Positions 35,850 through 59,057 of a DNA stretch of 64,000 nt are shown piece after piece. The first letter of the stretch is position 1. Each line of letters opens with the position of its first letter. Source of the stretch: Shinella pollutisoli (GTDB taxonomy: Bacteria > Pseudomonadota > Alphaproteobacteria > Rhizobiales > Rhizobiaceae); assembly GCF_024609765.1 (NCBI RefSeq), contig NZ_JANFDG010000012.1:78885-142884 (forward strand), given 5' to 3'. A model generated the notes under the pieces. It was not told the DNA's origin, ran no database searches, and saw only the letters and a list, made by a program, of their open reading frames with translations. The position numbers and the translations under genes are program-made.

Positions 35850-36533
35850 TCAAGTGGAGGTCTGCGAACGCTGCTCCTCAAGGAGTTGCAGCGCTACGAC
35901 GCAGGCGTTGCGGACATGGAGCGAGGCGATCTGCTGCGCCTCGGCCGCATCCCGCCGCTTTAGCGCCGCGGCCAGCGCATCGATCTCCGACAGGCTTTGC
36001 GAAATGCGGTTGGGATGCATGAGCGAGGTTGCCCGCAGGATATTGATCCGTGAGAACAGGCTCTGAAGCACTTCCTGGACGAGGTTGTTGCCGCAATGAC
36101 CGAGCATGATGCTGTAGAGGTGGCTCTTGGCTTCGAGAACCTTTGCGGTGTCGCCGGCAAGAGCGGTTTGACGCAAGAGCTCTGCGCCACGCGCGAATTC
36201 CTCGATCGCGGCGTCGCTCCCCTTCGTTGCGAATTCATGCGCGGCAAATCCTTCCAGCAGTCCGCGCAGGGCATAGAGATCGCGTGCTTCTTCCAGCGAG
36301 ATGGTGGCGACGACCGGACCCTTGTGCGGCACGATCTCGACAAGCTTTTCCGCCTCGAGCTTCCGAAGCGCTTCTCGGAGCGACGTGCGGCTCACGCCCA
36401 GTTCCTCGCAGAGTTCGCGCTCGACCAACCGGGCGCCGGGTGCGTAGCGGCCCGAGGTGATGGCCTGCCTCACGGCGTTTTCGATCTGGCGCCGCAACGT
36501 GTCGGGCTGCAGGACGGCTACTCGTCCGATCAT
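35850..36533 (-). CDS. GntR-family regulator with FCD domain
   Basis: A 227-residue regulator. The N-terminal winged helix ('VRQAITSGRYAPGARLVERELCEELGVSRTSLREALRKLEAEKLVEI') matches the FadR subfamily. The C-terminal FCD domain has the metal-type His in 'SHLYSIMLGHCGNN' and 'LRATSLMHPNRIS'. FCD regulators usually sense sugar acids or dicarboxylates and repress nearby catabolic genes. It is divergent from ABC cassette A and has a TGTATTA motif just upstream of its own start, so it probably controls itself and the catabolic island. Confidence 0.92.
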   Translation of the reverse strand: MIGRVAVLQPDTLRRQIENAVRQAITSGRYAPGARLVERELCEELGVSRTSLREALRKLEAEKLVEIVPHKGPVVATISLEEARDLYALRGLLEGFAAHEFATKGSDAAIEEFARGAELLRQTALAGDTAKVLEAKSHLYSIMLGHCGNNLVQEVLQSLFSRINILRATSLMHPNRISQSLSEIDALAAALKRRDAAEAQQIASLHVRNACVVALQLLEEQRSQTST

Positions 36534-39231: not shown

Positions 39232-41421
39232 ATGGCGGTCATGGTGGACACCAATATTACATCAAACAGTTCGTTGTCCCGCGCCCGGGAGGCGCCGTCC
39301 GGCAACGTCTCGGATGCGCTGGTGCGGTTCCGGCACCGCTGGATTCCGACCCATATTGTCGGCGAATTGCTGTCCAAGTCCTGGATCGACAATATCGTCC
39401 CGGCGGTGATCCTCGCTCTGATCGTCATCATCTTCGGCAGCATCGTCCCGAATTTCTTCCTGCCCGCCAATGTGTCCGACGGCACGCGGCAGATCGGCGA
39501 GTTCGGCTTCGTCGTCATCGGCATGATGATCGTCGTGGTCGGCGGCGGCATCGATCTCAGCGTCGGCTCGAACTTCGCGCTCGGCAACCTGCTCGCACTG
39601 GCGCTGACCAACATGTACGACATGCCGGTCGCCGTTGTCTTCATCGCCGTCGTCGCCACCTGCTCCTTCATCGGCCTGATCAACGGCGTGCTGGTCGGCG
39701 TCTTCAAGCTGCGCGCGTTTCTCACCACGCTCGTCATGCTGATCGGGCTGCGCGCGCTGGTCGACTCGCTGCTGCTGGTCTATGCGCTCGACATCTCGGC
39801 CGGTTTCTACGACAACGCGATCTGGGACTTCGCCGGCGCCGGTGACGTGTTCGGCATTCCCATCAGTTTCGTCCTCTTCGTCGTCGCCGCCATTCTCATG
39901 CATATCGTCATCAGCCGGACGCGGCTCGGCTGGCACATCATGGCGGTCGGCGGTTCGCGCCGTTCCGCCCACAATGCCGGCATCGCCGTGCGCTGGACGG
40001 TGTGCCTGACCTATGTGCTGAGCGGCGCCTTCTGCGGCATCTCCGCCTTCTTCTATGCCGCCCGCCTCGGCAATGGCGGCTCCTATCCGGGTGTCGGCCT
40101 CGAAGTCTTTGCGCTGACTGCCGTCATCGTCGGCGGCATCAGTCTCGGCGGCGGCCGAGGCTCGGTCGCCAAGGCGGTGATCGGCGCGATGATCGTGCAG
40201 ATCATCAATCTCGGCGTCGTCCAGCTCGGCCTGCAGAGCGGCGCGGGCCAGCTCGTCCTCGGCCTGATCCTGCTCGCGGCGATCGGCTTCGACGTCCGCT
40301 GGGTCAAGAACCGCGACAAGATCCTCTCGCGCGTCTACATGTCGCCGACCTATTTCGCGCTGCCGGCCTCGCCGGTCACCGAGGCCGGATCGGGTTCGCC
40401 CTTTGCCGCCAACGACCGGCTCGGCAAGGTCGAGGTCCACGGCCTCGGCCAGCTCGACGGCCCGGAAGACGTGATATTCGACAGCGCAGGCAATCTTTAC
40501 TGCGGCGACCGCCTCGGCAATATCATGCGGCTCGAAGGTCCGGACTACAAGGATGCCAGTGTTTTCACGCATATCGGCGGCCATCCGCTCGGCATGGCGA
40601 TCGATCGCGAGGACAATATCGTCGTCTGCGTCGGCGGCATGGGCCTTTATCGCGTGCGGCAGGATGCGAGTGTCGAGAAGCTGACCGACGAGACCAATCG
40701 CTCGCTGTTTTCGATCATCGACGATTCCCGGCTGCGGCTGACCGACGACTGCGACATCGCGCCGGACGGACGCGTCTTCTTCAGCGAGGCCACCACGCGT
40801 TTCGACATGGCAAGCTGGCCGTCGGATGCGCTCGAGAGCCGGCCGAGCGGACGCATCGTCTGCTACGATCCAAACAAGAAGACGACGCGCACCGTGGCGC
40901 GGAACCTGACCTTCCCGAACGGCATCACGCTGAGCCACAACGCGCAATCGATCCTGTTCGCCGAAAGCTGGGCTTGCCGGATCAGCCGCTACTGGTTCGA
41001 GGGTCCGAAGGCCGGGACCATCGAGCATGTGATCGAGAACCTGCCCGGCTATCCCGACAACATCAACCGGGCGAGCGACGGCAGCTACTGGCTGGCGCTG
41101 ATGGGCATGCGCTCGCCCGCCCTGGACCTCGCACTCAGGATGCCGGGCTTCCGCAGGCGCATGTCGCAGGAAGTCTCGATCGACGAATGGCTCTACCCCA
41201 ACATCAACACCGGCTGCATCCTGCGATTCAACGAGAAGGGCGACGTGCTGGAAAGCCTGTGGGACAAGACCGGCGCCAACCATCCGATGATCACCTCGAT
41301 GCGCGAGCACAAGGGCCGGCTCTATATCGGCGGCATCTTCAACAACCGCATCGGCAGCGTGGCGCTCGACGGCGCCGACAAGAACTGGACGGGCCCGTCG
41401 AGTTATTGGGGGCGCACATGA
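39232..41421 (+). CDS. ABC permease fused to an APMAP/strictosidine-synthase-like propeller (cassette A)
   Basis: A 729-residue fusion with no break in frame. Residues about 50-350 are an RbsC-like permease ('VVVGGGIDLSVGSNFALGNLL', 'AVGGSRRSAHNAGIAVRW', 'VGGISLGGGRGSVAKAVIGAM'). Residues about 400-729 are a complete six-bladed propeller of the strictosidine-synthase-like/APMAP/SMP-30 type. Its putative metal ligands are present: Glu in 'LDGPEDV', Asn in 'LTFPNGI' and Asp in 'LPGYPDNI'. The closing blade is 'MREHKGRLYIGGIFNNRIG'. In RbsC the C-terminus faces the cytoplasm, so the propeller should sit at the channel exit. The RBS is weak; an ATG at 39241 is an alternative. The same fusion occurs in cassette B. 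Confidence 0.9.
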   Translation: MAVMVDTNITSNSSLSRAREAPSGNVSDALVRFRHRWIPTHIVGELLSKSWIDNIVPAVILALIVIIFGSIVPNFFLPANVSDGTRQIGEFGFVVIGMMIVVVGGGIDLSVGSNFALGNLLALALTNMYDMPVAVVFIAVVATCSFIGLINGVLVGVFKLRAFLTTLVMLIGLRALVDSLLLVYALDISAGFYDNAIWDFAGAGDVFGIPISFVLFVVAAILMHIVISRTRLGWHIMAVGGSRRSAHNAGIAVRWTVCLTYVLSGAFCGISAFFYAARLGNGGSYPGVGLEVFALTAVIVGGISLGGGRGSVAKAVIGAMIVQIINLGVVQLGLQSGAGQLVLGLILLAAIGFDVRWVKNRDKILSRVYMSPTYFALPASPVTEAGSGSPFAANDRLGKVEVHGLGQLDGPEDVIFDSAGNLYCGDRLGNIMRLEGPDYKDASVFTHIGGHPLGMAIDREDNIVVCVGGMGLYRVRQDASVEKLTDETNRSLFSIIDDSRLRLTDDCDIAPDGRVFFSEATTRFDMASWPSDALESRPSGRIVCYDPNKKTTRTVARNLTFPNGITLSHNAQSILFAESWACRISRYWFEGPKAGTIEHVIENLPGYPDNINRASDGSYWLALMGMRSPALDLALRMPGFRRRMSQEVSIDEWLYPNINTGCILRFNEKGDVLESLWDKTGANHPMITSMREHKGRLYIGGIFNNRIGSVALDGADKNWTGPSSYWGRT

Positions 41422-42523
41422 GCGGCCTCCTCGCCCGCCTGTTCTCGCGCCGCGAGGCGGCCACCGTGCCGTCGATGGATGGCGTGCTCCGACCCAACAC
41501 CCTGCTCGACCAGGCAAGCCCGCTTGTCGCCCTGCCGGAGCCCGACAATCTGGTTCAGTTCGGCTCGAACCTTGCCTTCTCCAGCGGCAATGACGTGTTG
41601 GTTCTCGTGCCGGACAGCCCGGCGGGCTCGCCGCCGGAGCTGTTCCGCCGCTTCGAATCCCGCGTAACGGCGCTGGCCGTGTCGTCGCAATCCGTGCTCG
41701 CCGTCGGCCTCGATGGCAAAGGCATCGGATTGATCGGCGGCGCCTATGACGGCCTCGCGCTCGACCAGATCGGCGGCGTGCCCGCCAAGGGTCCGACGGC
41801 GCTCGCCTTTGCGGATGCCGACACGCTGATTGTCTGCATCGGTTCGGCGCAGAACGGGCCGGACGAGTGGCAGCGCGATCTCATGGAGATGCGCGCGACG
41901 GGATCGGTCTGGAAAGTCGATCTCCGCAGCAAGGCCGCGACCATGCTTGCGTCCGGCCTCGCTTTCCCGAATGGCGTTCTCATACGCGGCAACCGGGTCG
42001 TGGTGTCGGAAAGCTGGCGTCACCGGCTGCTCGGCCTCGATCTCGCCGCGGTCAAGGCCGTGCCGGACATCATCCTCGAAGATCTTCCCGGCTATCCCGG
42101 CCGGCTTTCCGAAGGGCGAGACGGCGGCGCGTGGCTCGCTGTCTTCGCGCCCCGAAGCCAGCTCATCGAATTCGCTCTGCGCGAGCGGGCCTATTGCCTG
42201 CGCATGCTGCGCGAGATCCCCAAGGAATACTGGATCGCACCGACGCTCCGCTCCGGCCGTTCGTTCCGCGAGCCGATGCAGGGCGGCGCGGTCCGCGTGC
42301 ACGGGATCTACAAGCCCTGGGCACCGACACGCTCCTATGGGCTTGCCGTCCAGCTCGACACCGATCTTCTGCCGGTCCGCTCTTTCCACAGCCGCGCCGA
42401 TGGCAGCCGGCACGGTATCGTCAGCATCTGCGAGTGGCAGGACCGGGTCGTCTTTGCCAGCCGTGGCGACGACCTTCTCTGCACATTGCCGCTCGATCCC
42501 CATTCGCCTCGGGATGCCGCACG

Positions 42524-42527
<4 letters not shown>
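41418..42527 (+). CDS. SMP-30/strictosidine-synthase-like protein, ligand-depleted (cassette A)
   Basis: A 369-residue soluble beta-propeller related to the propeller of the preceding fusion: 'LAFPNGVLIRGNRVVVSESWRHRLLGLDL', 'LEDLPGYPGRLSEGRDGGAWLAVF'. The Asn of 'FPNG' is kept, but the Asp of 'PGYPDN' is Gly and the 'GPED' Glu is missing. It may therefore be a binding or structural partner rather than an enzyme. A region with 'KEYWIAPTL' and 'GGAVRVHGIYKPWAPTRSYGL' is specific to this pair of proteins. It starts within the stop of the fusion gene (ATGA). Confidence 0.82.
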
Positions 42528-44020
<1,493 letters not shown>

Positions 44021-44090
44021 CGATTGGATCCGCGTGGAGAGTTTGAAGGCGAACGGCGTGCGGCAACCGGATAGGGCAAGGACAGGATCG

Positions 44091-45506
44091 ATGCAGAACG
44101 CGGAGCGGTCGGGGAGACCGGACATTGAGGATGACGGGATGGGCGGCACCGCCCTGCTGACGCAGCTGGTGCGTCAGGCCCGTGGCCGGAGCGATTTTCC
44201 CGCGGCAGTGCGGGAGAAGGCCGCGATCTGCCTCGTCGACTTTCTCTCTTGCGGGCTCGAGGCCGCCGAGCTTCCCTGGAGCCGGCAATCCTTCGCTCTC
44301 GCTGCCGGCCGGACCGGCGACTGCGCCATTGTCGGCGAGGCCGGATTCTATTGCGCCGAGGATGCCGCCTTCGCCAATGGCGTGCGCGGCCATGGCCTCG
44401 TGCGCGAGGACATGCATACCGGCAGCATATCCCATATGGGCGTCGTGGTCTGGCCGGTGCTGCTGGCGCTCGCCGGTGAGAGGAAGGCTCTTGCCGGCCG
44501 GCCGCTCGATGCGGCGATTGCCGGCTACGAGATCGGCGGCCGGATCGGCAGAGCCCTGATCACGCCGGAAATGGCGCGGCTTTTCCGCCCGACGGGGCTC
44601 ATCGGGCCGATCGCCGCGACGCTTGCCGGCGCGATCTTCCTTGGGCTCGACGAAGAGCGGACCGTGAGCGCGCTGGCTTTCGCGATCAACAGCGCCGGCG
44701 GGCTCAACGAATGGCCGCACAGCGGCGCCGACGACATGTATTTCCATCCGGGATTTGCCGCCCGCAACGCGCTGACGGCACTGCGGCTCGCCGAGCTCGG
44801 GGCGCGGGGCTCGGCCTCGGCGATCGATGGCAAGGCCGGGCTGTTCGCGGCCTTCGGGCGCCAGCCGCTGCCCCCTCGGCCGGTGCTCTTCCCCGATGGC
44901 GACTTCGAGATCATGAGCGTGTTCAACAAGGAGGTGCCGGCCTGCAATTTCGCCCAGTCGCCCTGCCAGGTGGCGCTCGCGGCCGTGCGGCGCATAGAGT
45001 TCGGCGACGAGATCGAGAGCGTACATCTTGCGACCTACGACGCGGCGTTGAACTATCCCGGCTGCGCCCATCGCGGGCCGTTCGAAACGCCGCTCCAGGC
45101 CAAGATGAGCATCTATTTCGGCATGGCGGCGACCATGGTTCGCGGCGAGATCGCGGAGGCCAATTACGGCCTGCTCGACGATCCCAGGATCGCCGATCTT
45201 ATCGCCAGGACGACGATCACCGTGTCCGACGCGCTAAGCGGTGCATTCCCCGCCCGGCAGGGTGCGCGGCTTCGTATAAAGACGAGAGCCGGCCGGATCA
45301 TCGAAGAAGCGCTCGATGACGTCAGACCAGCATCGCCGGCGCTGGTGCGCCAGCGCTTCTCGGCGGCGGCCGCCGCCCGTCTCGGACAGGCGAAAGTTCC
45401 GGCTCTGAACGATGTCATCGACGGCATGCTGGCCGGACGCGGCGATGCCGGAAGCCTTGCCGAACTCGGCCGGCTGGCTGCCCGCTCGGAGGGGACCCGC
45501 GCATGA
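44091..45506 (+). CDS. MmgE/PrpD family protein
   Basis: A 471-residue protein of the 2-methylcitrate dehydratase/aconitate decarboxylase superfamily. Typical parts are 'CLVDFLSCGLEAA', 'FANGVRGHGLVREDMHTGSISHMGVVVWPVLLALA', 'GYEIGGRIGRAL' and 'PACNFAQSPCQVALA'. Family enzymes dehydrate or decarboxylate hydroxy-acids. The ATG at 44091 is preferred (AGGACAGGA in front) over a GTG at 44034. It follows the cassette A ATPase by about 70 bases and is coupled to the lactonase-like gene downstream. It may dehydrate an imported sugar-acid-like compound. Confidence 0.85.
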   Translation: MQNAERSGRPDIEDDGMGGTALLTQLVRQARGRSDFPAAVREKAAICLVDFLSCGLEAAELPWSRQSFALAAGRTGDCAIVGEAGFYCAEDAAFANGVRGHGLVREDMHTGSISHMGVVVWPVLLALAGERKALAGRPLDAAIAGYEIGGRIGRALITPEMARLFRPTGLIGPIAATLAGAIFLGLDEERTVSALAFAINSAGGLNEWPHSGADDMYFHPGFAARNALTALRLAELGARGSASAIDGKAGLFAAFGRQPLPPRPVLFPDGDFEIMSVFNKEVPACNFAQSPCQVALAAVRRIEFGDEIESVHLATYDAALNYPGCAHRGPFETPLQAKMSIYFGMAATMVRGEIAEANYGLLDDPRIADLIARTTITVSDALSGAFPARQGARLRIKTRAGRIIEEALDDVRPASPALVRQRFSAAAAARLGQAKVPALNDVIDGMLAGRGDAGSLAELGRLAARSEGTRA

Positions 45507-46300
45507 GCGAGATCTACGAAGTCCTTGCCCTGAAATATGCCACCAACGACCGGCCGGCCTCGCACAATTTCATTGGCGGCGACGAGCACGACCGTTCGAT
45601 GCCCATCGACTATTTCATCTGGGTGATCCGCAACGAGAAGCGGACCGTTGTCGTCGACACCGGCTTCAACCCGGTCTCGGGCGCGCACCGGGCACGCAAG
45701 CTGACGACCCCGGTCAATGTCGCGCTTTCGGCAGTCGGCATCCACGGTGCAGATATCGAGCATGTGATCACCACGCACATGCATTACGACCATGCCGGAA
45801 ACAACGACATGTTCCCGAACGCCTGCTTCTACATGCAGGAGAGCGAGATGCATTACGCCACCGGCTCCTGCATGTGCCATCGCCTGCTGAACCACCCCTA
45901 CGAGGCGGATGACGTGGCGGGCATGGTCAAGCGCGTCTATGCCGGCAAGGTGTCCTTCTGCCTCGGCGACCGCGAACTGTTTCCCGGCCTATCCGTGCAC
46001 CACGTCGGCGGCCATTCCCGCGGCCTGCAATGCGTGCGCGTCGAGACCCAGCGGGGGCCGGTGGTGCTCGCCTCGGATGCCAGCCACCTCTACGCCCACA
46101 TGAATTCCGGCCGGGTGTTCCCGACTTGCGACAGCGTTGCCGACACCGTGCTGGGCTACGGCCGCCTCTTCGAACTCGGCGGCGATGCGAGCCGGATCGT
46201 GCCCGGCCACGATCCCGAGGTGATGCGACGCTATCCGGCTCTCAGCCCGCAGACGTCGGGCATGGTGGTCAAGCTCGACGTCGACGAGGCGACTGGATGA
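45503..46300 (+). CDS. metallo-beta-lactamase-fold hydrolase, AHL-lactonase-like
   Basis: A 265-residue protein with a complete dinuclear zinc site: 'THMHYDHAG' (H-x-H-x-D-H), His in 'VGGHSRG', Asp in 'ASDASH' and His in 'VPGHDP'. The spacing and the 'VDTGFNP' strand place it near N-acyl homoserine lactonases and related lactone hydrolases. The start overlaps the MmgE/PrpD stop by 4 bases. In this context it more likely opens a metabolic lactone than quenches quorum signals. Confidence 0.88.
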   Translation: MSEIYEVLALKYATNDRPASHNFIGGDEHDRSMPIDYFIWVIRNEKRTVVVDTGFNPVSGAHRARKLTTPVNVALSAVGIHGADIEHVITTHMHYDHAGNNDMFPNACFYMQESEMHYATGSCMCHRLLNHPYEADDVAGMVKRVYAGKVSFCLGDRELFPGLSVHHVGGHSRGLQCVRVETQRGPVVLASDASHLYAHMNSGRVFPTCDSVADTVLGYGRLFELGGDASRIVPGHDPEVMRRYPALSPQTSGMVVKLDVDEATG

Positions 46301-46409: not shown

Positions 46410-46736
46410 ATGATCGTGGAACTTCGCGTCTATCACTGCGCGCCGACCCGGCTGCCGGCCCTTCTCGAGCGGTTCCGGTCGACGACGCTGACCTTTTTCG
46501 AGCGCTACGGCATCCGGCAGATCGGCTTCTGGACCACGGTCGTCGGCACCGACAACCACGCCCTGACCTATCTGCTCCAGTGGGACAGCATGGCTGAGCG
46601 CGAAGAGCGCTGGAGCGCATTCCAGTCCGATCCCGACTGGATCGCGGCCCGGACCGAAAGCGAACGGGAGAAGCCGATCGTGGTGCGTGTCGAGAACAGT
46701 TTTCTCGCGCCGACCGACTTCTCGGCGCTTCGCTAG
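46410..46736 (+). CDS. NIPSNAP-family protein
   Basis: A 108-residue dimeric alpha-beta barrel protein: 'VELRVYHCAPTRLPALLERF', 'YGIRQIGFWTTVVGTDNHALTYLLQWDSMAEREERW' and 'FQSDPDWIAAR'. NIPSNAP proteins bind or convert small molecules; some bacterial ones sit in catabolic operons. It is the first gene after the AT-rich promoter at 46330 and is followed by two dehydrogenases. Confidence 0.88.
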   Translation: MIVELRVYHCAPTRLPALLERFRSTTLTFFERYGIRQIGFWTTVVGTDNHALTYLLQWDSMAEREERWSAFQSDPDWIAARTESEREKPIVVRVENSFLAPTDFSALR

Positions 46737-46769: not shown

Positions 46770-47642
46770 ATGACGGGCAGGACAATAGGCTTTATCGGAC
46801 TGGGAATGATGGGGACGCCGATGTGCGCGTGCCTCGCCGCCGCCGGCCACCGGCTCCATGTCGCCGATGCCGATCCCGCGCGGGTGGCCGAGGTCTGCGA
46901 GAGGTTTTCCGCCGAGCCGCTGACGTGGGATGTGGCGCCAGGGCTCGACATGCTGATCACCATGCTGCCGAATTCGGCGATTGTCGAAGCCGTGCTGCTC
47001 GAAGACGGCTGGGCCGGACGGTTGGCCAGGGGCGCGCTCGTCATGGACATGAGTTCCTCCGAGCCTACCCGGTCGCGCGATCTCGCCACGACGCTCGCGG
47101 CGCAGCGCATCGACTACCTCGACGCGCCCGTCTCCGGCGGCGTGAAGCGTGCGGAAAGCGGATCGCTTGCCATCCTCGTCGGCGGCGAGGAGCCGGTGAT
47201 GCAGAAGGCGCTTCCGGTCCTGCAGGCCATGGGGAAATCGATCCTGCATATCGGTCCGGCAGGATCCGGCCACGCCGCCAAGGCGCTCAACAATTTCGTC
47301 TCCGCCTGCGGCCTGATGATCACCGTCGAGGCCCTGCATGTCGCACGGCGCTTCGGTATCGCGCCCGAGGTGATGACCGACGTGCTCAATGCTTCGACCG
47401 GCCGCAGCAACACGACGGAGAACAAGGTCAAGCAGTTCATGTTGTCGGGCAGCTTCGCCTCCGGCTTCGCGCTCCGGCTGATGGACAAGGATCTTTCGAT
47501 CGCCGGCGCGCTCGCCGATTCCGTCGGCTACCCGCTGACCTTCGGCAAGAAGGGCATCGAGACCTGGCACGAGGTCGCGACGACCGCACCGGCATCGGCC
47601 GACCACACCGAAATGTATCGCTTCCTCGCGATGGATGAGTGA
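46770..47642 (+). CDS. beta-hydroxyacid dehydrogenase (HIBADH family), copy 1
   Basis: A 290-residue NAD(P)-dependent enzyme with the cofactor loop 'GFIGLGMMG', the substrate motif 'DAPVSGGV' and the catalytic lysine in 'GSGHAAKALNN'. The family includes 3-hydroxyisobutyrate, tartronate semialdehyde and L-threonate dehydrogenases. It lies between the NIPSNAP and aldehyde dehydrogenase genes. It probably interconverts a hydroxy-acid and its aldehyde or keto form for the next enzyme. Confidence 0.9.
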   Translation: MTGRTIGFIGLGMMGTPMCACLAAAGHRLHVADADPARVAEVCERFSAEPLTWDVAPGLDMLITMLPNSAIVEAVLLEDGWAGRLARGALVMDMSSSEPTRSRDLATTLAAQRIDYLDAPVSGGVKRAESGSLAILVGGEEPVMQKALPVLQAMGKSILHIGPAGSGHAAKALNNFVSACGLMITVEALHVARRFGIAPEVMTDVLNASTGRSNTTENKVKQFMLSGSFASGFALRLMDKDLSIAGALADSVGYPLTFGKKGIETWHEVATTAPASADHTEMYRFLAMDE

Positions 47643-47649
47643 GGGCGAT

Positions 47650-49080
47650 ATGAAGCTGGATCAGTTCTATGTCGACGGCGCCTGGGTCGATCCCGTGGAT
47701 GTCAGATGGATGGATCTCGTCGATCCCGCGACGGAGGAGGTCCATGCGCGGCTGGCCCTCGGCGGTGCCGCCGATGTCGATCGCGCGGTCACCGCGGCGC
47801 GGCGGGCATTCCCGGCCTTCAGCGAGACCTCGGCCGGCGAACGCGGCCGGCTGCTGCGCCGCATTCTCGAAATCTACACGCGGCGCTATGACGAATTCGC
47901 CGAGGCGATGCGCAAGGAAATGGGCGTGCCCATAGCCTTCGCGACATCCGGGCAGGCAGCACGCGGCCCCGCCCATATCAATGCCCTGCTCGACGTGCTC
48001 GACCGGTTCCGCTTCGAGGAGGACATGGGCACGACGCGCCTGCGCTACGAGGCGGTCGGCGTCTGCGGCCTGATCACGCCTTGGAACTGGCCGGTCAATC
48101 AGGTCATCGTGAAGGTCGCCCCGGCGCTCGCCGCCGGCTGCACGATGGTGCTCAAGCCCAGCGAGTTTTCGGCGATGAGCGCGGTCCTGCTCGCTGAGGT
48201 CCTGCACGAGGCGGGCGTGCCGCCCGGCGTCTTCAATCTGCTCAATGGCGATGGCGCCGGCGTCGGCGCCGCGATCGCCGCCCATCCCGACATCGACATG
48301 GTGTCCTTCACCGGCTCGACCCGGGCGGGTATCGAGGTGGCACGGTCGGCGGCGGCGACCGTCAAGCGCGTCGCCCAGGAGTTGGGCGGCAAGTCGGCCA
48401 ATATCCTGCTCGACGATGTCGATCTTGAAGACGCCGTGCGCCGCGGCGTGGCGGGCTGCTTCACCAATTCCGGCCAGTCCTGCTCGATCCCTACCCGCAT
48501 GCTGGTGCCGCGTCATCTCCTGGCGAAGGCAGCCGGGATCGCCTCGGCGGCGGCCGTTGCCTACCGCGTCGGCCCGACCGACCGCAGCGACACCCAGCTC
48601 GGTCCATTGGTCAACAAGAGCCAGTTCGAGCGCGTGCAGCGCCTCATCCAAAGCGGCATCGACGAGGGCGCCATCCTCGTTGCCGGCGGCACCGGCCGGC
48701 CGCATGGGCTGGAGACGGGCTATTTCGTCCGCCCTACGGTCTTCAGCGATGTCCGTCCCGACATGACCATCGCGCGGGAGGAGATCTTCGGGCCTGTCCT
48801 GTCGATCATTCCCTATGACAGCGAGGACGAGGCGGTGGCAATCGCCAACGGCGCGCTCTACGGCCTTGCCGGCTATGTGCAGTCGGCCGACCTCGACCGC
48901 GCGCGCGCCGTTGCCCGCCGGCTGCGTGGCGGACAGGTCCATATCAACTATCCGCCCGCGGATTTCCAGGCGCCCTTCGGCGGCTACGGCCGCTCCGGCA
49001 ACGGCCGCGAATGGGGCGAGGCGGGCCTCAGGGAATATCTCGAGACGAAAGCCATGGTTGGATACGAGGCGGCCCGATGA
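47650..49080 (+). CDS. NAD(P)-dependent aldehyde dehydrogenase
   Basis: A 476-residue member of the ALDH superfamily. It shows 'TPWNWPVNQVIVKVAPALAAGCTMVLKPSE', 'FTGSTRAG', the general base Glu in 'QELGGKS', the nucleophile Cys in 'NSGQSCSIPTRMLV' and 'EEIFGPVLSI'. The ATG at 47650 is preferred (GAGGGCG in front); an ATG at 47635 would overlap the dehydrogenase gene. It likely oxidises the aldehyde made by a neighbouring beta-hydroxyacid dehydrogenase. Confidence 0.94.
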   Translation: MKLDQFYVDGAWVDPVDVRWMDLVDPATEEVHARLALGGAADVDRAVTAARRAFPAFSETSAGERGRLLRRILEIYTRRYDEFAEAMRKEMGVPIAFATSGQAARGPAHINALLDVLDRFRFEEDMGTTRLRYEAVGVCGLITPWNWPVNQVIVKVAPALAAGCTMVLKPSEFSAMSAVLLAEVLHEAGVPPGVFNLLNGDGAGVGAAIAAHPDIDMVSFTGSTRAGIEVARSAAATVKRVAQELGGKSANILLDDVDLEDAVRRGVAGCFTNSGQSCSIPTRMLVPRHLLAKAAGIASAAAVAYRVGPTDRSDTQLGPLVNKSQFERVQRLIQSGIDEGAILVAGGTGRPHGLETGYFVRPTVFSDVRPDMTIAREEIFGPVLSIIPYDSEDEAVAIANGALYGLAGYVQSADLDRARAVARRLRGGQVHINYPPADFQAPFGGYGRSGNGREWGEAGLREYLETKAMVGYEAAR

Positions 49081-49151
49081 GTGCCGCCTCGATCGTCCGC
49101 GATGCCGAATTCACTGCTGCAATGGCGGAGGCCGTTCAAGATGTCGTCTGA
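49077..49151 (+). CDS. tiny frame between ALDH and CMD genes
   Basis: A 24-codon frame that starts inside the ALDH stop (ATGA) and ends 11 bases inside the next gene. The peptide (MSAASIVRDAEF..., acidic and helical) looks like the N-terminus of a soluble protein. It may be the remnant of a deleted gene or a coupling element. Its upstream half contains no RBS of its own. Confidence 0.25.
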   Translation: MSAASIVRDAEFTAAMAEAVQDVV

Positions 49152-49554
49152 TAGCGAAATGTTCGTCAAGGGTTTCCAGAACCGGAAGAATGTACTGGGC
49201 GCTTCCCATGTCGAGAAATCCTGGGAGAATGCCGACGATTTCAACCGTCCGGCCCAGCGGCTGGTGACTGAATACTGTTGGGGGGAGGTCTGGGGCGACA
49301 GCACGCTGACTTTCCCCGTGCGCAGCATGCTCAATCTCGCAATGCTGACCGCGATGAACCAGCATCACGAACTCGGGGTCCATGTGAAGGGCGCGCTCAA
49401 CAACGGGGTGACGCCGGAGGAAATCCGGGCCGTGCTGCTGCAGGCCATGGTCTATTGCGGTGCCCCGGCAGCGCTTGCCGCCTTCCGCACGGCGAGCGCC
49501 GTGATCAAGGATTGGCAGTCCGATCAGGCGCCGGTCCAGGCGAAAGCGGAATAG
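49141..49554 (+). CDS. carboxymuconolactone decarboxylase (CMD) family protein
   Basis: A 137-residue helical protein of the CMD/AhpD superfamily: 'RSMLNLAMLTAMNQHHELGVHVKGALNNGVTPEEIRAVLLQAMVYCGAPAALAAFRTA'. It has one cysteine at the site where AhpD has CxxC, as in gamma-carboxymuconolactone decarboxylase. GGAGG 9 bases upstream fixes the start at 49141. In this operon it could decarboxylate or isomerise a lactone intermediate. Confidence 0.88.
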   Translation: MSSDSEMFVKGFQNRKNVLGASHVEKSWENADDFNRPAQRLVTEYCWGEVWGDSTLTFPVRSMLNLAMLTAMNQHHELGVHVKGALNNGVTPEEIRAVLLQAMVYCGAPAALAAFRTASAVIKDWQSDQAPVQAKAE

Positions 49555-49605: not shown

Positions 49606-50505
49606 ATGACTGGCGCAAGTATAGGCTTCATAGGGCTTGGCAACATGGGTGGGCGCATGACCCGCTGCATCGTGGCGGGCGGCATGCCGGTCCTGGGCTA
49701 TGACAGGGACGAAGCTGCAGCGGCACGGGCGGGCGCCACTGCCGCCGCCTCCGCCCGCGCGATCGTCGAGGGAGCCGACATCATCCTGCTCTCGCTGCCG
49801 GACTCGACCGTTATCGAACGCGTCGTGGAAGGTGACGGCGGCATCATTGGCCATGTCCGCCCCGGCCAGATCATCGCCGACATGAGCACGGCCTCGGCGG
49901 CCTCCACGCGCAGGCTGGCGGCCCGTTTCGCCGAGAAGGGCGTGGCCTTCGTCGATGCCGGCATATCCGGCGGCGCGGCGGCGGCCGAGAAGGGCGCGCT
50001 GACCCTGATGGTCGGCGGCGATGCCGGTGCCGTCGCAAGGCTCGAACCCGTCTTCGCGCTGATCGCCAGGAAGGTGATCGTTATGGGCGGCAGCGGCGCC
50101 GGCCATACGGCCAAGCTGCTCAACAATTTCCTCAATGCCGTCAGCCTCGCCGCGACCGCCGAGGTCATGGTGGCGGGCAAGAAGGCCGGCCTCGACCTCC
50201 ACAAGCTGCTCGAGGTCCTCAACGCCAGCAGCGGCGTAAACTTCGCGACGCTGAACCGTTTTCCGAAGATCGTCGACGGCGACTATCTCGAAGGCGGCCT
50301 GACGTCCAAGCTGATGACCAAGGACGTGCTGCTCTATTGCGATCTCCTGCACGAGCTCGGCGTCTCCTCGCTCAATGCCGCGGGGCCGATGGCGAGTTTC
50401 GGCCTGGCGACCGCGCTCGGCTACGGCGATGTCATCAGCAACCGCGTCGTCGATGCGATCGGCGATATCTCGGGAGGCGTCCGCCTCCATGGCAGCAAGG
50501 AATGA
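49606..50505 (+). CDS. beta-hydroxyacid dehydrogenase (HIBADH family), copy 2
   Basis: A 299-residue enzyme with 'GFIGLGNMGGRM', 'DAGISGGAAAAEKGALTLMVGG' and the catalytic lysine in 'GAGHTAKLLNN'. It is clearly a distant paralogue of the gene at 46770, so the two probably act on different intermediates of the same pathway. It is followed by a cupin gene 4 bases later. Confidence 0.9.
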   Translation: MTGASIGFIGLGNMGGRMTRCIVAGGMPVLGYDRDEAAAARAGATAAASARAIVEGADIILLSLPDSTVIERVVEGDGGIIGHVRPGQIIADMSTASAASTRRLAARFAEKGVAFVDAGISGGAAAAEKGALTLMVGGDAGAVARLEPVFALIARKVIVMGGSGAGHTAKLLNNFLNAVSLAATAEVMVAGKKAGLDLHKLLEVLNASSGVNFATLNRFPKIVDGDYLEGGLTSKLMTKDVLLYCDLLHELGVSSLNAAGPMASFGLATALGYGDVISNRVVDAIGDISGGVRLHGSKE

Positions 50506-51402: not shown

Positions 51403-51471
51403 ATGCGGGATTCCGGGGATAGACGTGCTCGGTGCGGTCGGCCGCGAATGGCCGGAGGAGAACCCGCATGA
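51403..51471 (+). CDS. possible leader ORF of cassette B
   Basis: A 22-codon frame with a strong GGGGGGAG site before its ATG. Its TGA overlaps the ATG of the permease by 4 bases (ATGA). The peptide is Arg- and Gly-rich. The same arrangement, with another sequence, precedes cassette A. It may couple translation; chance is not excluded. Confidence 0.35.
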   Translation: MRDSGDRRARCGRPRMAGGEPA

Positions 51472-52436
51472 GACTTACCCAAGAAGGCGTGGTTTTCCTG
51501 CTGGCGGCGGCGTTGTTCGCGCTGTTCGCCGCAACCCTTCAGAATTTCCTGACACCGGGCAACATGGTCGCCCTCGTGCGAAGCGTCGCCATTCTCGGCA
51601 TCCTTGGCCTGGGCATGGGACTTGTCGTCATCGGCCGGGGGATCGACCTTGCGATGGTGGCGACGATGGTCGTGTCCGTGTCCTGGGTGCTTTCTCTCGC
51701 CCAGGCGTCATTTCCGCTGCCTGTCGCGCTGTTGTTCGGGTTTCTGTTCGCGCTTGCGGTCGGGCTGGCGAGCGGGCTGCTCGTCGCCTACGCGACCATT
51801 CCCGCGATCTTCGCCACATTGGCGACGGGCCTGATGGTCTACGGCATGGGACGCGCCTGGCTGTTCGAAGTCGACGTGCAGAATACGCCGGCGCAGTCCA
51901 CCTTCTTCACGTCGCTCAGCGAAATCACCGTGCTGGGCATTCCGATGATGATCGTCGCCTTCGGCCTGCTGTCGGCGATCATCTGGGCACTGCTGAGATG
52001 GACGCAGTTCGGCCGCCTGATCTACGCGATCGGCGACAATCCCGTTGCCGCGCGGACCTCCGGCATCGCGATACGCCCCCTGATCGTCGCTCAATATGTC
52101 ATCGCCTCGGCGGTCAGCTTCCTGGCGGGGCTGGTGATGGCCGCCGCCAATTCCGGCATGAGCACCCGGGTCTACAATTCGACCATGATCTACGACGTGC
52201 TGCTGGTCGTCGTCCTCGGCGGCATCGGGCTCAGCGGCGGTCGCGGCAGCATGCGAAACGTCCTGGTGGGGACCTTGCTGGTCGGAGTACTCCTCAACGG
52301 CATGACGATCTACGACATTCCGTACACCGAGCAGAACCTGATCAAGAGCATCATTCTGCTGGCGGCAATCACGATCGACAGTCTTGTAAACCCCCGCGAT
52401 GAGCAGACCGCACAGCAGGATCTGGGGGACATCTGA
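51468..52436 (+). CDS. ABC transporter permease, RbsC-like (cassette B, unfused)
   Basis: A 322-residue permease paralogous to the one at 37080. Shared motifs are 'VVIGRGIDLAMVATMVVSVSW', 'YAIGDNPVAARTSGIAIRPL' and 'VLGGIGLSGGRGSMRNVLVGTLLVG', and both end near 'NPRDEQTAQQ'. GGAGGAG precedes the ATG at 51468. It should pair with the fused permease at 53508. Confidence 0.92.
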   Translation: MRLTQEGVVFLLAAALFALFAATLQNFLTPGNMVALVRSVAILGILGLGMGLVVIGRGIDLAMVATMVVSVSWVLSLAQASFPLPVALLFGFLFALAVGLASGLLVAYATIPAIFATLATGLMVYGMGRAWLFEVDVQNTPAQSTFFTSLSEITVLGIPMMIVAFGLLSAIIWALLRWTQFGRLIYAIGDNPVAARTSGIAIRPLIVAQYVIASAVSFLAGLVMAAANSGMSTRVYNSTMIYDVLLVVVLGGIGLSGGRGSMRNVLVGTLLVGVLLNGMTIYDIPYTEQNLIKSIILLAAITIDSLVNPRDEQTAQQDLGDI

Positions 52437-52469
52437 TACTTGAACAACAAAGGGTGGAGGAACCAAGCG

Positions 52470-53483
52470 ATGAATCTATTGAAGACCATGGCATTCCTAT
52501 GTGCCGCACTGGTGCTACCCGCATCGTTGGCGATCGCCGAGGAGAAGGGGCTCGACAACGCGGTAAAGCGCACGCCTTACTACGACAATCTCAAGGGCAA
52601 GAAGGTGGTCTTCGTGCCGCTGGCCATGGGCTTCGACCTGACCGAAGGCTGGGCTGCGATAATGCAGAAGCAGGCCAAGGATCTCGGCTACAGTTTCGAA
52701 ATCCGCGACCCCAACTGGAGCACGGATGCCGGCACCCGGGCGATCACCGCGATCATCGCCGAAAAGCCCGACGTCGCGATCATCCACAATCCGGACCTGC
52801 AATCCTATGCACGGCTGCAGCAGCGCATGGTCGCCGCGGGCATCAAGGTGCTGCAGGTCAACCTCGAGACCACCAGCCCTACCGACTATTATATCGGCGC
52901 CGACTGGGTGAAAGTCGGGCTGATCCAGGCCGAGGTCCTGGTCAAGCAATGCGGCGCCGGCAGCAACACGTCGGGCAAGGTGGCGATCCTCGAAGGACAG
53001 CCGACGGCCGCATCCAACCTCTACGAACTCTACGCCTACTACAAGATCTTCGCGGAACATCCCGAGATCAAGATCGTGTCGGACCAGGCGGCGACCTATG
53101 ACCCGGCCAAGGCCCGTGCCATCACCGAAACGGTTCTGCAGCAGCATCCGGACCTTTGCGGCATCGTCGGCAACTGGGACAACCAGGACGTTGGCGCGGG
53201 TGCTGCAGTCCAGGCCGCCGGCAAATCGGACCAAGTCTATATCGTTACCTCCGGCGGTGGCAGCAAGACGGGCTGCGACAATATCGAGAAGGGTCTGCTC
53301 GACCTCATCGTCAGCTATGACGTCCCTCTGCAGGGCGACGCGCTCAATCAGGCGATTGTCGATCTGCTTCTGTCACCCGCGAAGGCCGGCGAGACCCAGA
53401 CGACCTATTTCACGCCGCTGACGCTGCAGACCAAGGACACCATCACGCCGCGCAATTGCTGGACTTTGGACCAGCTGAAGTAA
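52470..53483 (+). CDS. sugar-type periplasmic binding protein (cassette B)
   Basis: A 337-residue protein with a signal peptide ending near 'SLAIAEEK'. It is paralogous to the protein at 38109: 'KKVVFVPLAMGFDLTEGWAAIMQKQAKDLGYSFEIRDPNWSTDAGTR', 'HNPDLQSYARLQQRM' and 'ARAITETVLQQHPDLCGIVG'. The ATG at 52470 (GTGGAGG in front) is preferred over a TTG at 52440. Sequence differences in the ligand loops suggest that the two cassettes bind related but not identical compounds. Confidence 0.92.
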   Translation: MNLLKTMAFLCAALVLPASLAIAEEKGLDNAVKRTPYYDNLKGKKVVFVPLAMGFDLTEGWAAIMQKQAKDLGYSFEIRDPNWSTDAGTRAITAIIAEKPDVAIIHNPDLQSYARLQQRMVAAGIKVLQVNLETTSPTDYYIGADWVKVGLIQAEVLVKQCGAGSNTSGKVAILEGQPTAASNLYELYAYYKIFAEHPEIKIVSDQAATYDPAKARAITETVLQQHPDLCGIVGNWDNQDVGAGAAVQAAGKSDQVYIVTSGGGSKTGCDNIEKGLLDLIVSYDVPLQGDALNQAIVDLLLSPAKAGETQTTYFTPLTLQTKDTITPRNCWTLDQLK

Positions 53484-53507
53484 GCCATCCGGCAAACACC
53501 AACAGGG

Positions 53508-55643
53508 ATGAACTGGTCCGTGGCATTCAGCAACGAGAGCGTCATAAAATTCACAGCAAGATATCTTCCCCGGCACGTTGTCGGGGAAATCATGACCAAG
53601 CGCTGGATCGACAATGCCGTGCCGTTCCTGGCCCTGCTGCTCGTCGTGGCGATCTGCGGTTCTCTCGTTCCGGATTTCTATGCGGCGTCGAGCATCACGG
53701 ACCTCGGCCGGCAGGTCGCGGAATTCGGTCTCGTCGTGCTGGCGCTGAGCATCGTGATGATATCGGGAGGCATCGACCTGTCGGTCGCGTCGGTGTTTTC
53801 GCTGTCGGTTCTTCTGTCTCTGATCGGCGTGAACGTTTATGACTGGCCTGTCCCTCTGGCGCTGGCGTCGGTGCTCGCCATGGGCGCGGCCTGTGGCGCC
53901 GTCAATGGCTACCTGATCGGTTTCCTGCGCCTGCGCGCATTCCTGACCACACTCGTGACGCTGATCATATTCCGCTCCCTCTACGACATCCTGTTCCTGC
54001 GGATGTCGACCGCGATCATGGCCGGATTCTCGGACTCGGAACTGTTCTTCTTCATCGGCGAAGGGCTCGTGTTCGGCTTGCCCGTGTCGCTGCTGATCGC
54101 CGGCACGATCGCCATCGCCTGGCATATCGTTCTGTCGCGCATGCGGCCAGGCTGGCGCCTGACGGCCGTGGGCGGGGCGCGACGGTCTGCGCACAATGCC
54201 GGCATCAAGGTACGCTGGACGGTCTTTCTCGCCTATGTCTGGTCAGGTATCCTGTGCTCGCTGGCGGGTTTCCTGTTCGCTGCACGGCTGGGAAGCACGG
54301 GTGCCGATACGGGTGTCGGCCTCGAAGTCTCGGCCCTGACCGCTGCAGTCCTGGGCGGGACGTCGATCGGCGGTGGCCGGGGCTCGGTCGCCAAGGCCAT
54401 CATGGGCGCGCTGCTCATCCTGATTCTAACCAACAGTCTCGTCAATCTCGGCGTCAACGGCCCGATTACCTCGACCATCCTCGGCGCGGTGCTGCTGATC
54501 GCCGTTTTCATCGACATGCGCTGGCTGCGGCATCGCACGAGAATTCTTGCCAAGCTCTATGTCTCGCCCGCCTATCTCGTGCTGCCGCCGCTGCCCGACA
54601 CCGCGGCGCCGGATTCCCCCTACGCGCTCAACGACCGGCTCCGCTCCGTCGAGATCATCGGGCTGGGCGAAATCGAAGGGCCTGAGGACGTGATCCTCGA
54701 CCGCAACGACAATCTCTATTGCGGAACCCGCCACGGCGATATCGTGCGGTTCTTCGGACCGGACCACAAGAAAAGCGAGATATTCGCCCATATCGGCGGG
54801 CATCCGCTGGGCATGGCCTTCGACCGCGAGGGCAACCTGCTGGTCTGCATCGGCGGCATGGGGCTCTATCAGGTCTCGCCGGACAAGGTTGTCACCAAGC
54901 TGACCGACGAGACCAATCGCAGCCTGTTCTCGATCGTCGACGACTCCCGGCTGCGGCTGGCCGACGATCTCGACATCGCGCCCGACGGGCGGATCTATTT
55001 CAGCGAGGCGACCATCCGCTACGAGCAGGAGGAATGGGCGACGGACGCGCTGGAAAGCCGGCCGAGCGGACGCATCATCGTCTATGATCCCAGGACCGGA
55101 TCGACCCGGACCGAGGTGCCCAGCCTGGTTTTCGCCAACGGCATCTGCATGTCCAATGACGGCCGGTCGCTGTTCTTCGCCGAGAGCTGGACCTGCACGA
55201 TCAGCCGCTACTGGTTCGATGGTCCCGAGAAGGGCAAGATCGAACCGCTCCTGACCAACCTGCCGGGCTATCCCGACAACATCAACCGGGCATCGGACGG
55301 CAATTACTGGGCGGCACTCCTGGGGATGCGCACACCGGCGCTCGACCTCGCGCTGAGGATGCCGGGCTTCAGGCGGCGGATGGCGCGCCGCGTCGCACCC
55401 GATCAATGGATTTATCCCAACGTGAATACGGGTTGCGTCGTGAAATTCAACGAGAAAGGCGAAATCCTCGAAAGCCTGTGGGACTTCGGCGGAGAAAACC
55501 ATCCGATGATCACGTCGATGCGTGAGCACAAGGGCTATCTCTATCTCGGTGGCGTCTCGAACAATCGCATCGGCCGCTACAAGATTCCCGGCGCCGATCC
55601 GACATGGGTTGCCGAGGAAAGCTATTGGGGACCTCGCAAATGA
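53508..55643 (+). CDS. ABC permease fused to an APMAP/strictosidine-synthase-like propeller (cassette B)
   Basis: A 711-residue fusion with the same layout as the one at 39232. The permease part is at residues about 25-350 ('MISGGIDLSVASVFSLSVLL', 'VGGARRSAHNAGIKVRW', 'LGGTSIGGGRGSVAKAIMGAL'). The propeller covers residues about 380-711, with ligand candidates in 'IEGPEDVILD', 'LVFANGICM' and 'LPGYPDNINRASDG'. The junction is the conserved 'KLYVSPAYLVLPPLPDT' linker. The RBS is weak (AACAGGG). Preservation of the fusion in both copies argues that the link between domains matters. Confidence 0.9.
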   Translation: MNWSVAFSNESVIKFTARYLPRHVVGEIMTKRWIDNAVPFLALLLVVAICGSLVPDFYAASSITDLGRQVAEFGLVVLALSIVMISGGIDLSVASVFSLSVLLSLIGVNVYDWPVPLALASVLAMGAACGAVNGYLIGFLRLRAFLTTLVTLIIFRSLYDILFLRMSTAIMAGFSDSELFFFIGEGLVFGLPVSLLIAGTIAIAWHIVLSRMRPGWRLTAVGGARRSAHNAGIKVRWTVFLAYVWSGILCSLAGFLFAARLGSTGADTGVGLEVSALTAAVLGGTSIGGGRGSVAKAIMGALLILILTNSLVNLGVNGPITSTILGAVLLIAVFIDMRWLRHRTRILAKLYVSPAYLVLPPLPDTAAPDSPYALNDRLRSVEIIGLGEIEGPEDVILDRNDNLYCGTRHGDIVRFFGPDHKKSEIFAHIGGHPLGMAFDREGNLLVCIGGMGLYQVSPDKVVTKLTDETNRSLFSIVDDSRLRLADDLDIAPDGRIYFSEATIRYEQEEWATDALESRPSGRIIVYDPRTGSTRTEVPSLVFANGICMSNDGRSLFFAESWTCTISRYWFDGPEKGKIEPLLTNLPGYPDNINRASDGNYWAALLGMRTPALDLALRMPGFRRRMARRVAPDQWIYPNVNTGCVVKFNEKGEILESLWDFGGENHPMITSMREHKGYLYLGGVSNNRIGRYKIPGADPTWVAEESYWGPRK

Positions 55644-56761
55644 TCGCGGCATTGAAGAAGGCCTATGCCAATTTCCGCGGGTTCGACCTGACGCACAGCG
55701 CGGTGCCGCCCATGGAGGGTCCGCTGCGGCCCAACACCAGACTGGACGCGATGCCGGTCGCGCTGGCGCTGGATGGGATCGACAACCTCGTGCGGTTCGG
55801 CGAGGTGATGATGTGTTCCAGCGGCATGCGGCTCATCACGCTCTCGCGTGCCGGACAGACGCTGAACGCGGTCGAGGCGGCGGAGCAGCCGGCGCCGATA
55901 TCCTGCCTGGCCTCCGATGGAAGCGATGCACTTGCCGTCGGGCTCGACGGCAGTGGGATCGTGATCCGCGGCGGCAAGCATGACGGCCGGACGATCGACA
56001 GGCTGGGAGACGCGGCTTTCTCCTGCCCGACCTCGGCGCTCTTTGTCGATCCGGACACGCTCGTGGTCGCCAACGGCTCCTCCCGGCATAACGCCGCGGA
56101 CTGGAAACGCGATCTGATGAGCCAGGGCAGCACCGGCAGCGTCTGGATCGTCGATCTTGCTGCAACCGGCGGCGCGGCGGTCACGCGCCTTGCCGAGAAC
56201 CTGGCCTGGCCGTCGGGCATTTCGCTGAAGCGTGACGGCAGCTTCTTCGTCTCGGAAGCCTGGCGCCATCGCGTTCTCTCGATCGAGCGGAAGGGAGGGG
56301 CGCCCTCGGTGGCGCTGGCGGATCTACCTGCCTATCCGGGGCGGATAGAGACGGCGATGGCCGGCGGCTTCTGGCTTGCGCTCTTTGCCCCCCGCAACCC
56401 GATGGTCGAGTTTGTGCTCCTCGAAAAGGAGTACAGGCGTCGCATGATGGAGACGATCGATCCCGAATATTGGATCGCCCCGAACCTCGCGCCGAGCAAA
56501 AGCTATCTGCAACCGATTCAGGGCGGCGCCCGCAAGATGCTGAACAGGCTGAAACCCTGGTCCCCGACCTGGTCCTATGGGCTGGTCTGCTATTGCGACG
56601 CCGGCATGCGCCCGCGATGGAGCATGCATAGCCGGGCAGACGGGCACGTTCATGGAATCACGACGCTGTGCGAATGGGACGGAACGCTCTTCGCCGGCGC
56701 CAAAGGATCGGGCGTGGTCGTCGTCGCGCCGATCCTCGAAACAGACGGGTTGGTCGCATGA
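55640..56761 (+). CDS. SMP-30/strictosidine-synthase-like protein, ligand-depleted (cassette B)
   Basis: A 373-residue propeller paralogous to the protein at 41418. The FPNG motif is 'WPSG' here (Asn lost), PGYPDN is 'PAYPGR' (Asp lost), and no GPED-type Glu is seen. Yet the fold landmarks ('FVSEAWRHRVLSIE', 'FWLALFAPRNPMVEF', 'EYWIAPNLAPS') are kept. This is consistent with a non-catalytic partner. The ATG overlaps the fusion stop (ATGA), and its own stop overlaps the ATPase start. Confidence 0.82.
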   Translation: MIAALKKAYANFRGFDLTHSAVPPMEGPLRPNTRLDAMPVALALDGIDNLVRFGEVMMCSSGMRLITLSRAGQTLNAVEAAEQPAPISCLASDGSDALAVGLDGSGIVIRGGKHDGRTIDRLGDAAFSCPTSALFVDPDTLVVANGSSRHNAADWKRDLMSQGSTGSVWIVDLAATGGAAVTRLAENLAWPSGISLKRDGSFFVSEAWRHRVLSIERKGGAPSVALADLPAYPGRIETAMAGGFWLALFAPRNPMVEFVLLEKEYRRRMMETIDPEYWIAPNLAPSKSYLQPIQGGARKMLNRLKPWSPTWSYGLVCYCDAGMRPRWSMHSRADGHVHGITTLCEWDGTLFAGAKGSGVVVVAPILETDGLVA

Positions 56762-58254: not shown

Positions 58255-58310
58255 CGACGGCGGGATCGCACGGAACCGACAACGTTCATTCGGAAGACAC
58301 GGGAGAGAGC

Positions 58311-59057
58311 ATGGCTCGTCTGTCAGGCAAGAATGCCTTCGTCACCGGTGCCGGCGGCGGCATCGGCCGTGAAATCGCCTTCGGCCTGGCGCGCGAGGGT
58401 GCGCGCGTGGCCTGCGCCGACATAAACGACGACCTGCTTGCCGAAGTGGCATCATTCTCCGGCGGGCTGGATCTCGTGCCCGTCCATTGCGACATCTCGG
58501 ACCGCTCCGACGTTTTCGACAAGCTCGATACGTTCGCCGGCCAATCCGGCGGGCTCGACATATTGGTCAACAACGCAGTGGTCTTTCATTTTGCGCCGCT
58601 GGCGGATTTCGACCCGGAGATCATCGATCGCATGCTGAACGTGGGGCTCAAGGGCACCTACTGGGCGATGCAGGCCGCGACGCCGCATCTGAAGAAGCGT
58701 GGCGGCAGCGTCATCAATCTCTCGTCCATCGCCGTATCGATGGCGATCCCCAATGCCGCCGTCTACACGTCGATAAAGGGCGCGATCGATGCGCTGACGC
58801 GCCAGCAGGCGGCAGAACTTGCTCCGTTCGGCATCCGGGTCAACGCTGTCGCGCCGGGATCGATACCGACACCCGGCGCCAGTTCCGTGATCGACCAGGC
58901 CGGCTGGGAAAGCCGGAAGCGAAAGACGCTTCTGGATCGGCTGCCGACCGCGGCCGAGATCGCGGCCGCCGCGATCTATCTCGCTGCCGACGAGGCGGCG
59001 AGCATCACCGGCATCACACTCAAGATCGACTCGGGCATGACGATCGCCAGCCCATGA
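58311..59057 (+). CDS. short-chain dehydrogenase/reductase
   Basis: A 248-residue SDR with 'TGAGGGIGREIAF', 'ADIND', 'NNAVVF' (NNAG variant), the catalytic Ser in 'LSSIAV' and 'YTSIK', and 'VNAVAPGSI'. GGGAGAG before the ATG at 58311 fixes the start; the frame from 58251 is not used. It follows cassette B and probably oxidises or reduces the imported compound. Cassette A has no SDR at the same place but has MmgE/PrpD and a lactonase-like gene. Confidence 0.92.
   Translation: MARLSGKNAFVTGAGGGIGREIAFGLAREGARVACADINDDLLAEVASFSGGLDLVPVHCDISDRSDVFDKLDTFAGQSGGLDILVNNAVVFHFAPLADFDPEIIDRMLNVGLKGTYWAMQAATPHLKKRGGSVINLSSIAVSMAIPNAAVYTSIKGAIDALTRQQAAELAPFGIRVNAVAPGSIPTPGASSVIDQAGWESRKRKTLLDRLPTAAEIAAAAIYLAADEAASITGITLKIDSGMTIASP

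Follow-up and report, generated by a model that had tools for sequence, protein, structure and literature searches.

The DNA analysed here is a stretch of 64,000 nucleotides from Shinella pollutisoli (Rhizobiaceae; contig NZ_JANFDG010000012.1, positions 78,885 to 142,884), hereafter the window, and the gene under study is a single forward-strand frame at 39232-41421 that encodes 729 amino acids with no internal stop. The encoded protein consists of an RbsC-type permease (residues ~50-354), a charged linker helix (355-388) and a strictosidine-synthase-like (SSL) propeller (389-729). In Pfam searches the permease half matches BPD_transp_2 (PF02653) at residues 82-350 with 105 bits against a cut-off of 26.8, and the second half matches SSL_N (PF20067) at residues 390-434, above its curated cut-off, Str_synth (PF03088) at 505-591 (74 bits, cut-off 25) and SGL (PF08450) at 419-625 (48.5 bits, cut-off 26.3). 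The original prediction had described one uninterrupted frame running from a permease into a complete propeller and had named these four domains for a search; with 729 open codons, all four domains above their cut-offs and a predicted fold of six blades of the SSL type for the C-terminal half, that description stands. A 751-residue antisense open reading frame on the reverse strand (39262-41517) lies over the fusion gene and is taken as a reading shadow of GC-rich coding DNA.

The fusion gene is the third member of a cassette of five forward-strand genes. It is preceded by a permease without a propeller (permease 1, PF02653, 37080-38057) and by a periplasmic substrate-binding protein with a hydrophobic N-terminal segment (PF13407, 38109-39161), and is followed by a free-standing second propeller that lacks the metal-site residues (P2, 41418-42527) and by a double ATP-binding cassette (ABC) ATPase of the RbsA type (42524-44020). 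The start of P2 overlaps the stop of the fusion gene (ATGA), and the start of the ATPase gene overlaps the stop of P2. A second fusion gene, copy B (53508-55643, forward strand, 711 amino acids), is 57% identical to copy A over 701 columns and has a full cassette of its own (51432-58254), also on the forward strand, with permease 1 at 51432-52436, a binding protein at 52440-53483, P2 at 55640-56761 and the double ATPase at 56758-58254; the stop/start overlaps at the fusion-P2 and P2-ATPase junctions recur in it. Both permeases of both copies pass the PF02653 cut-off, the two binding proteins match PF13407 with 148.9 and 142.4 bits (cut-off 35.1), and PF00005 occurs in two stretches on one ATPase chain in each copy. 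The permeases of copy A stay below the NCBIfam equivalog cut-offs (best 132 of 398 bits for the fusion and 150 of 378 for permease 1). The architecture is thus that of an RbsABC-type importer in which one of the permeases is joined to a propeller. The second fusion copy, P2 and the fixed cassette had all been overlooked at first.

The joined architecture is neither a sequencing error nor a chance read-through, because it recurs in homologues, in loci from named genomes and in the second copy of the window. In a homologue search that scored the 7996 best word-sharing candidates and returned 4309 matches, unfused relatives included, all 120 best homologues listed carry the four domains in 693-747 amino acids, so the fusion is not a peculiarity of a single genome. 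The best 80 of 458 named-genome loci, ranked by score against the fusion and hence favouring full-length fusions, contain 85 fusion copies, two of them cut by the end of the stretch. The order permease 1, binding protein, fusion, P2, ATPase is found in 73 of these 85 copies, with genes called by codon usage; eight of the other 12 lie at the edge of a stretch, and four have a neighbour that was not called as the expected family. Seventy-nine of the 80 loci belong to Pseudomonadota (mostly alphaproteobacteria, a few betaproteobacteria and one gammaproteobacterium), and the remaining one to a 'Deltaproteobacteria' bin. A survey of genomes for the same fusion, which the original prediction had proposed, shows it to be widespread: in a sample of 397 genomes of the order, with at most two candidates scored per genome, a full-length fusion occurs in 50 and a partial one in two more, and 56 of the 59 matches are full length without an internal stop, the other three being partial. 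In a sample of 299 genomes of the phylum, nine (the window's own genome counted) have full-length matches. Three of the 15 full-length matches in this sample showed one stop inside; in two of these the rescored match ends 15 bases short and has no stop, which places the stop at the upstream edge, and the third lay outside the two candidates scored in the order sample. Among 72,556 plasmid records, 16 carry a fusion match (E <= 1e-100), 15 of them covering at least 80% of the query.

P2 is itself a propeller, with a predicted local distance difference test score of 90.7 for its AlphaFold model and strictosidine synthase as best fold match, and it is homologous to the fused propeller (profile probability 99.9%). 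It is the constant partner of the fusion, since the 15 strong P2 matches in the 299 genomes each lie directly downstream of one of the 15 full-length fusions; none of the remaining genomes gave a strong match, with few candidates scored per genome. The site of the fused propeller is gone in P2, because the residues at its places have been replaced. In an alignment of 77 rows (75 from the 82 P2 genes of the loci, and two from the window), the places of Glu412, Asp505, Asn563, Asp609 and Asn610 hold, respectively, Asp or Glu in 71, Thr in 67, Asn in 21, Gly, Ala or Ser in 77, and Arg in 73 rows. Other residues are conserved within P2 itself, where 29 of 369 columns reach 98% identity or more. 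P2 thus has the look of a constant partner that is catalytically dead and has its own pocket. The Arg at the place of Asn610 is conserved in the P2 proteins of both cassettes (41418-42527 and 55640-56761).

In contrast, the putative site of the fused propeller is kept almost without change. Across an alignment of 92 fusions, Glu412, Asp505, Asp506, Asn563 and Asn610 are invariant, and Asp609 is present in 91. The candidate metal ligands first proposed, a Glu, an Asn and an Asp, are there as Glu412, Asn563 and Asp609; the set departs from the standard Glu-Asn-Asn-Asp of calcium-binding propellers in its second position, which is Asp505 in all 92 sequences. Among solved structures the fold nearest to the fusion is TGW6, and strictosidine synthase, DFPase and the RPA3624 lactonase also appear; no solved RbsC-type chain was among the sequence matches (single-sequence and profile), and the fold matches listed were filled by propellers. 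Glu412, Asp505, Asn563 and Asn610 align with Glu59, Asn167, Asn226 and Asn272 of TGW6, one numbering offset of 28 holding for all four; its authors describe these residues as a partly conserved Ca2+ site with a single acidic residue, where Ca2+ proteins have at least two (PMC10958001). Since Asp505 stands in for Asn167 of TGW6, a metal at the site of the fused propeller is plausible.

C-termini of RbsC proteins face the cytoplasm, and the original prediction had placed the propeller there. With helix and loop borders read off the predicted model, the mean net charges over the 92 sequences for stretches that are inside by alternation are +1.4 (N-terminus), +2.0, +3.5 (the coupling loop), +1.0 and +3.2 (behind the last helix), and those for the outside stretches are -0.4, -0.3, -2.7, -0.8 and +0.1. 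The last permease helix in the model (336-369, with confidence falling toward its end) continues to the propeller. Hydrophobic N-terminal stretches are present in both binding proteins of the window, and no P2 has one (0 of 77 above 1.8). Because of this charge pattern and the missing N-terminal stretch in P2, both propellers are predicted to be cytoplasmic, as the sequences suggest.

The genes around the cassettes bear on the substrate. Downstream of copy A in the window, all on the forward strand, are genes for an MmgE/PrpD family protein of the catabolic module (44034-45506), a metallo-beta-lactamase-fold hydrolase resembling lactonases of N-acyl-homoserine lactones (45503-46300, with an HMHYDH motif and no NCBIfam cut-off reached), a NIPSNAP protein (46410-46736), a 3-hydroxyisobutyrate dehydrogenase-like protein (46770-47642), an aldehyde dehydrogenase (47635-49080), a carboxymuconolactone decarboxylase family protein (49081-49554) and a second 3-hydroxyisobutyrate dehydrogenase-like protein (49606-50505). 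The hydrolase, in line with copy A, could supply this pathway with another lactonase. A GntR/FCD regulator (35850-36533, reverse strand) is divergent from copy A, and a short-chain dehydrogenase (58251-59057, forward strand) adjoins copy B. Further on beside copy B, the segment 60621-63985 encodes a protein that resembles a relaxase weakly, below the cut-off, together with a conjugative coupling protein that is clear (PF02534); this DNA seems to belong to a plasmid or integrative element.

Module kinds differ between clades of the fusion. A tree of 85 fusions (83 locus copies, the two cut-off ones having been dropped, and the two window copies) places copies A and B in two different clades; it was built by a quick method, and several of its long branches are unsure. 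Four module kinds, assigned to 54 rows with 31 left unlabelled, require six changes on this tree against a mean of 27.1 when shuffled (none of 200 as low), a clustering helped by near-copies. One kind is marked by a degradative 3-hydroxy-3-methylglutaryl-CoA (HMG-CoA) reductase near the fusion in seven loci, namely five of the 80 named ones (L014, L057, L061, L066 and L073) together with L107 and L108; the assignment rests on scores above cut-off on scanning whole L014, L061 and genome G055, on clustering for L057, L066 and L073, and on a fragment for L108. In a second kind the ATPase is immediately followed by an alcohol and an aldehyde dehydrogenase, and several loci add a CoA-transferase, an acyl-CoA dehydrogenase or a RipC-like lyase. 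The third combines an AraC regulator with an acyl-CoA synthetase, and many of its loci also carry an enoyl-CoA hydratase. The fourth is the window type, with the lactonase-like metallo-hydrolase, the carboxymuconolactone-decarboxylase-family protein, MmgE/PrpD, hydroxyisobutyrate dehydrogenases and aldehyde dehydrogenase; within the locus stretches, L006 has both A and B in tandem beside this module, L059 only B, and L007 and L008 only A. By contents, these clade-varying modules look built for short organic acids.

HMG-CoA reductase and HMG-CoA lyase together form the mevalonate degradation route. A lyase is nearby in five of the seven reductase loci, and a CoA-transferase and an enoyl-CoA hydratase, which would suit anhydromevalonate, lie between reductase and cassette in six of the seven; in L061 they occur with HMG-CoA lyase adjoining. 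The reductase in these seven loci is a feature pointing to mevalonate-type compounds. At L107:7480-18723 the reductase, CoA-transferase, enoyl-CoA hydratase and fusion cassette stand in line with the HMG-CoA lyase opposite, and this is likely an operon for the uptake and degradation of mevalonate or anhydromevalonate. For the importer of the window a mevalonate substrate was considered and rejected, its own genome having no degradative HMG-CoA reductase at E <= 1e-50. In the alcohol/aldehyde dehydrogenase clade the HpcH-type lyase matches RipC best, at only 132-185 of 375 bits, and the dehydratase-like protein has no NCBIfam match; an itaconate-like route there (4-hydroxy-2-methylenebutanoate, tulipalin or tuliposide) is offered as an idea only.

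The reading we favour, whose chance we put slightly under even, is that of an RbsABC-type importer whose second permease is joined to a cytoplasmic propeller that hydrolyses a lactone or ester of the import at the channel exit. Such hydrolysis fits the nearest solved folds and the catabolic neighbours. A neutral lactone or ester would be imported through the channel; the fused propeller, at a putative metal site (probably calcium), would cleave a C-O bond as the import leaves; and the freed hydroxy acid would pass to the enzymes encoded next door, hydrolysis having trapped the compound inside as a carboxylate. P2, if catalytically dead, would most simply dock to permease 1, which would leave the exit flanked by two propellers. 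Substrates may be short, often branched hydroxy acids, taken up as a lactone or sugar ester, and would be of the mevalonate type in the clades with HMG-CoA reductase.

Several observations weigh against this reading. TGW6, the nearest solved fold, is reported to be without Ca2+ (PMC10958001). A lactonase-like metallo-hydrolase (45503-46300) is already encoded in the window. In the order sample, reductase and fusion occur together in three of 397 genomes, where 4.8 would be expected from the 37 and 52 genomes that have them, respectively, so that the two are not enriched together at genome level; in G055 and G496 they lie in neighbouring DNA and in G374 they do not, and the reductase of G496 is split over contigs in pieces below cut-off. 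As to placement, a cytoplasmic C-terminus needs a half helix of the model (290-300) to be counted as a crossing, and the topology claim is weakened because strict alternation places loop 104-110, with a net charge of -1.0, inside; the cytoplasmic end first proposed therefore agrees with the overall charge pattern and not with this loop. The weightiest objection is that the propeller is the best-conserved part despite the differing modules: columns with 98% identity or more make up 84 of 341 in the propeller and 43 of 305 in the permease, and identities between copies A and B are 66% for the propeller, 67% for the ATPase, 54% for permease 1, 49% for the permease half and 46% for the binding protein. 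This would be unexpected for a substrate-specific hydrolase, unless the clades have the cleaved bond or moiety in common. The high conservation could reflect such a shared bond or moiety, for example a sugar ester seen by a sugar-type transporter, or a regulatory role.

In the latter case the fused propeller would be non-catalytic and, with P2, would act as a sensor or gate that binds the import or a metabolite and regulates the importer, much as accessory domains regulate some other ABC importers. We consider this unlikely, if the most credible of the alternatives: a propeller whose conservation roughly equals that of the ATPase even where clades differ in their modules, and a constant partner that has lost the site yet keeps its own residues, would suit a regulator, whereas the complete set of polar residues at the site, unchanged in 92 sequences, and the enzymatic nature of most of the nearest folds speak for catalysis. 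A non-hydrolytic reaction of the propeller, such as an isomerisation or a strictosidine-synthase-like condensation, is less probable still.

Proteins that work in one pathway are often found fused, and the joined gene may do no more than place a normal soluble hydrolase beside its importer, without coupling the two mechanically or kinetically, a prospect we rate as poor. Unfused relatives at 31-40% identity do exist. Of the 16 unfused propellers matched in the phylum sample, the surroundings of 10 (L097-L106) were compared with window-like genes only, and none of these has an RbsC-type permease beside it; these ten show one 3-hydroxyisobutyrate dehydrogenase-like neighbour and one weak ATPase match (22%), and Pfam gave flanking genes of mixed families in two. 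Against mere co-localisation, the fusion was not seen replaced by two separate genes side by side: of 59 matches, 56 are full length, and the three partial ones include two on different contigs of one assembly. Nor would mere co-localisation need P2, which accompanies the fusion in 15 of 15 cases. That the propeller is periplasmic and acts before transport, as the secreted or lumenal location of several related eukaryotic propellers, the aberrant loop 104-110 and a helix 290-300 too short for a sure crossing might suggest, is very improbable given the +3.2 behind the last helix, the +3.5 of the coupling loop and a partner P2 with no hydrophobic N-terminal segment.

The favoured reading of hydrolysis at the exit would matter since ABC importers are generally taken to move molecules unchanged. 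Here a large family of fixed architecture seems to carry an enzyme at an importer exit, with a dead twin as constant partner; if the exit hydrolysis is true, energy-driven import is coupled to chemical trapping. The HMG-CoA-reductase branch provides a substrate class open to direct testing and points to genes that are candidates for the uptake of mevalonate-type compounds. A bolder and doubtful proposal is that these systems would form a new class of ABC importer resembling group translocation, with a built-in hydrolase, only free acid inside and an inactive P2 completing a two-propeller exit chamber, one branch being the first known importer-hydrolase for mevalonolactone-type compounds. The importer family and the propeller family are each already known. 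The architecture is easily missed, because the names used in databases (ribose permease, ABC permease or SMP-30/gluconolactonase protein) refer to one of the halves and ignore the other, and a literature search aimed at the combination, judged by titles and the start of abstracts, gave no description of a permease-propeller fusion.

Among known systems, the RbsABC/CUT2-type importers (RbsC, AraH, MglC, LsrCD) share the PF02653 permeases, the PF13407 binding protein and the two-domain ATPase chain, and differ in that the present cassette has two different permeases, one with a propeller, plus the extra protein P2. In strictosidine synthase the catalytic residue is Glu309, whose place in the fusion seems to be taken by Thr688, in a weak alignment piece of ~8 bits whose offset is presumed. 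The Ca2+ propeller hydrolases DFPase, PON1, Drp35 and the RPA3624 lactonase usually have Asn where the fusion has Asp505. The same is true of TGW6 (8kg3; Asn167), the rice hydrolase of indole-3-acetic acid-glucose, a glucose ester, for which the accessible part of the source describes a protein without Ca2+ and no transporter context (PMC10958001). A parallel in design is DrSOD of Deinococcus radiodurans, a Cu/Zn superoxide dismutase fused to a propeller lactonase with the site Glu200, Asn290, Asn339 and Asp381 (PMC12362111); there, too, a propeller lactonase is joined to an unrelated domain, but the partner is a soluble enzyme and not a transporter.
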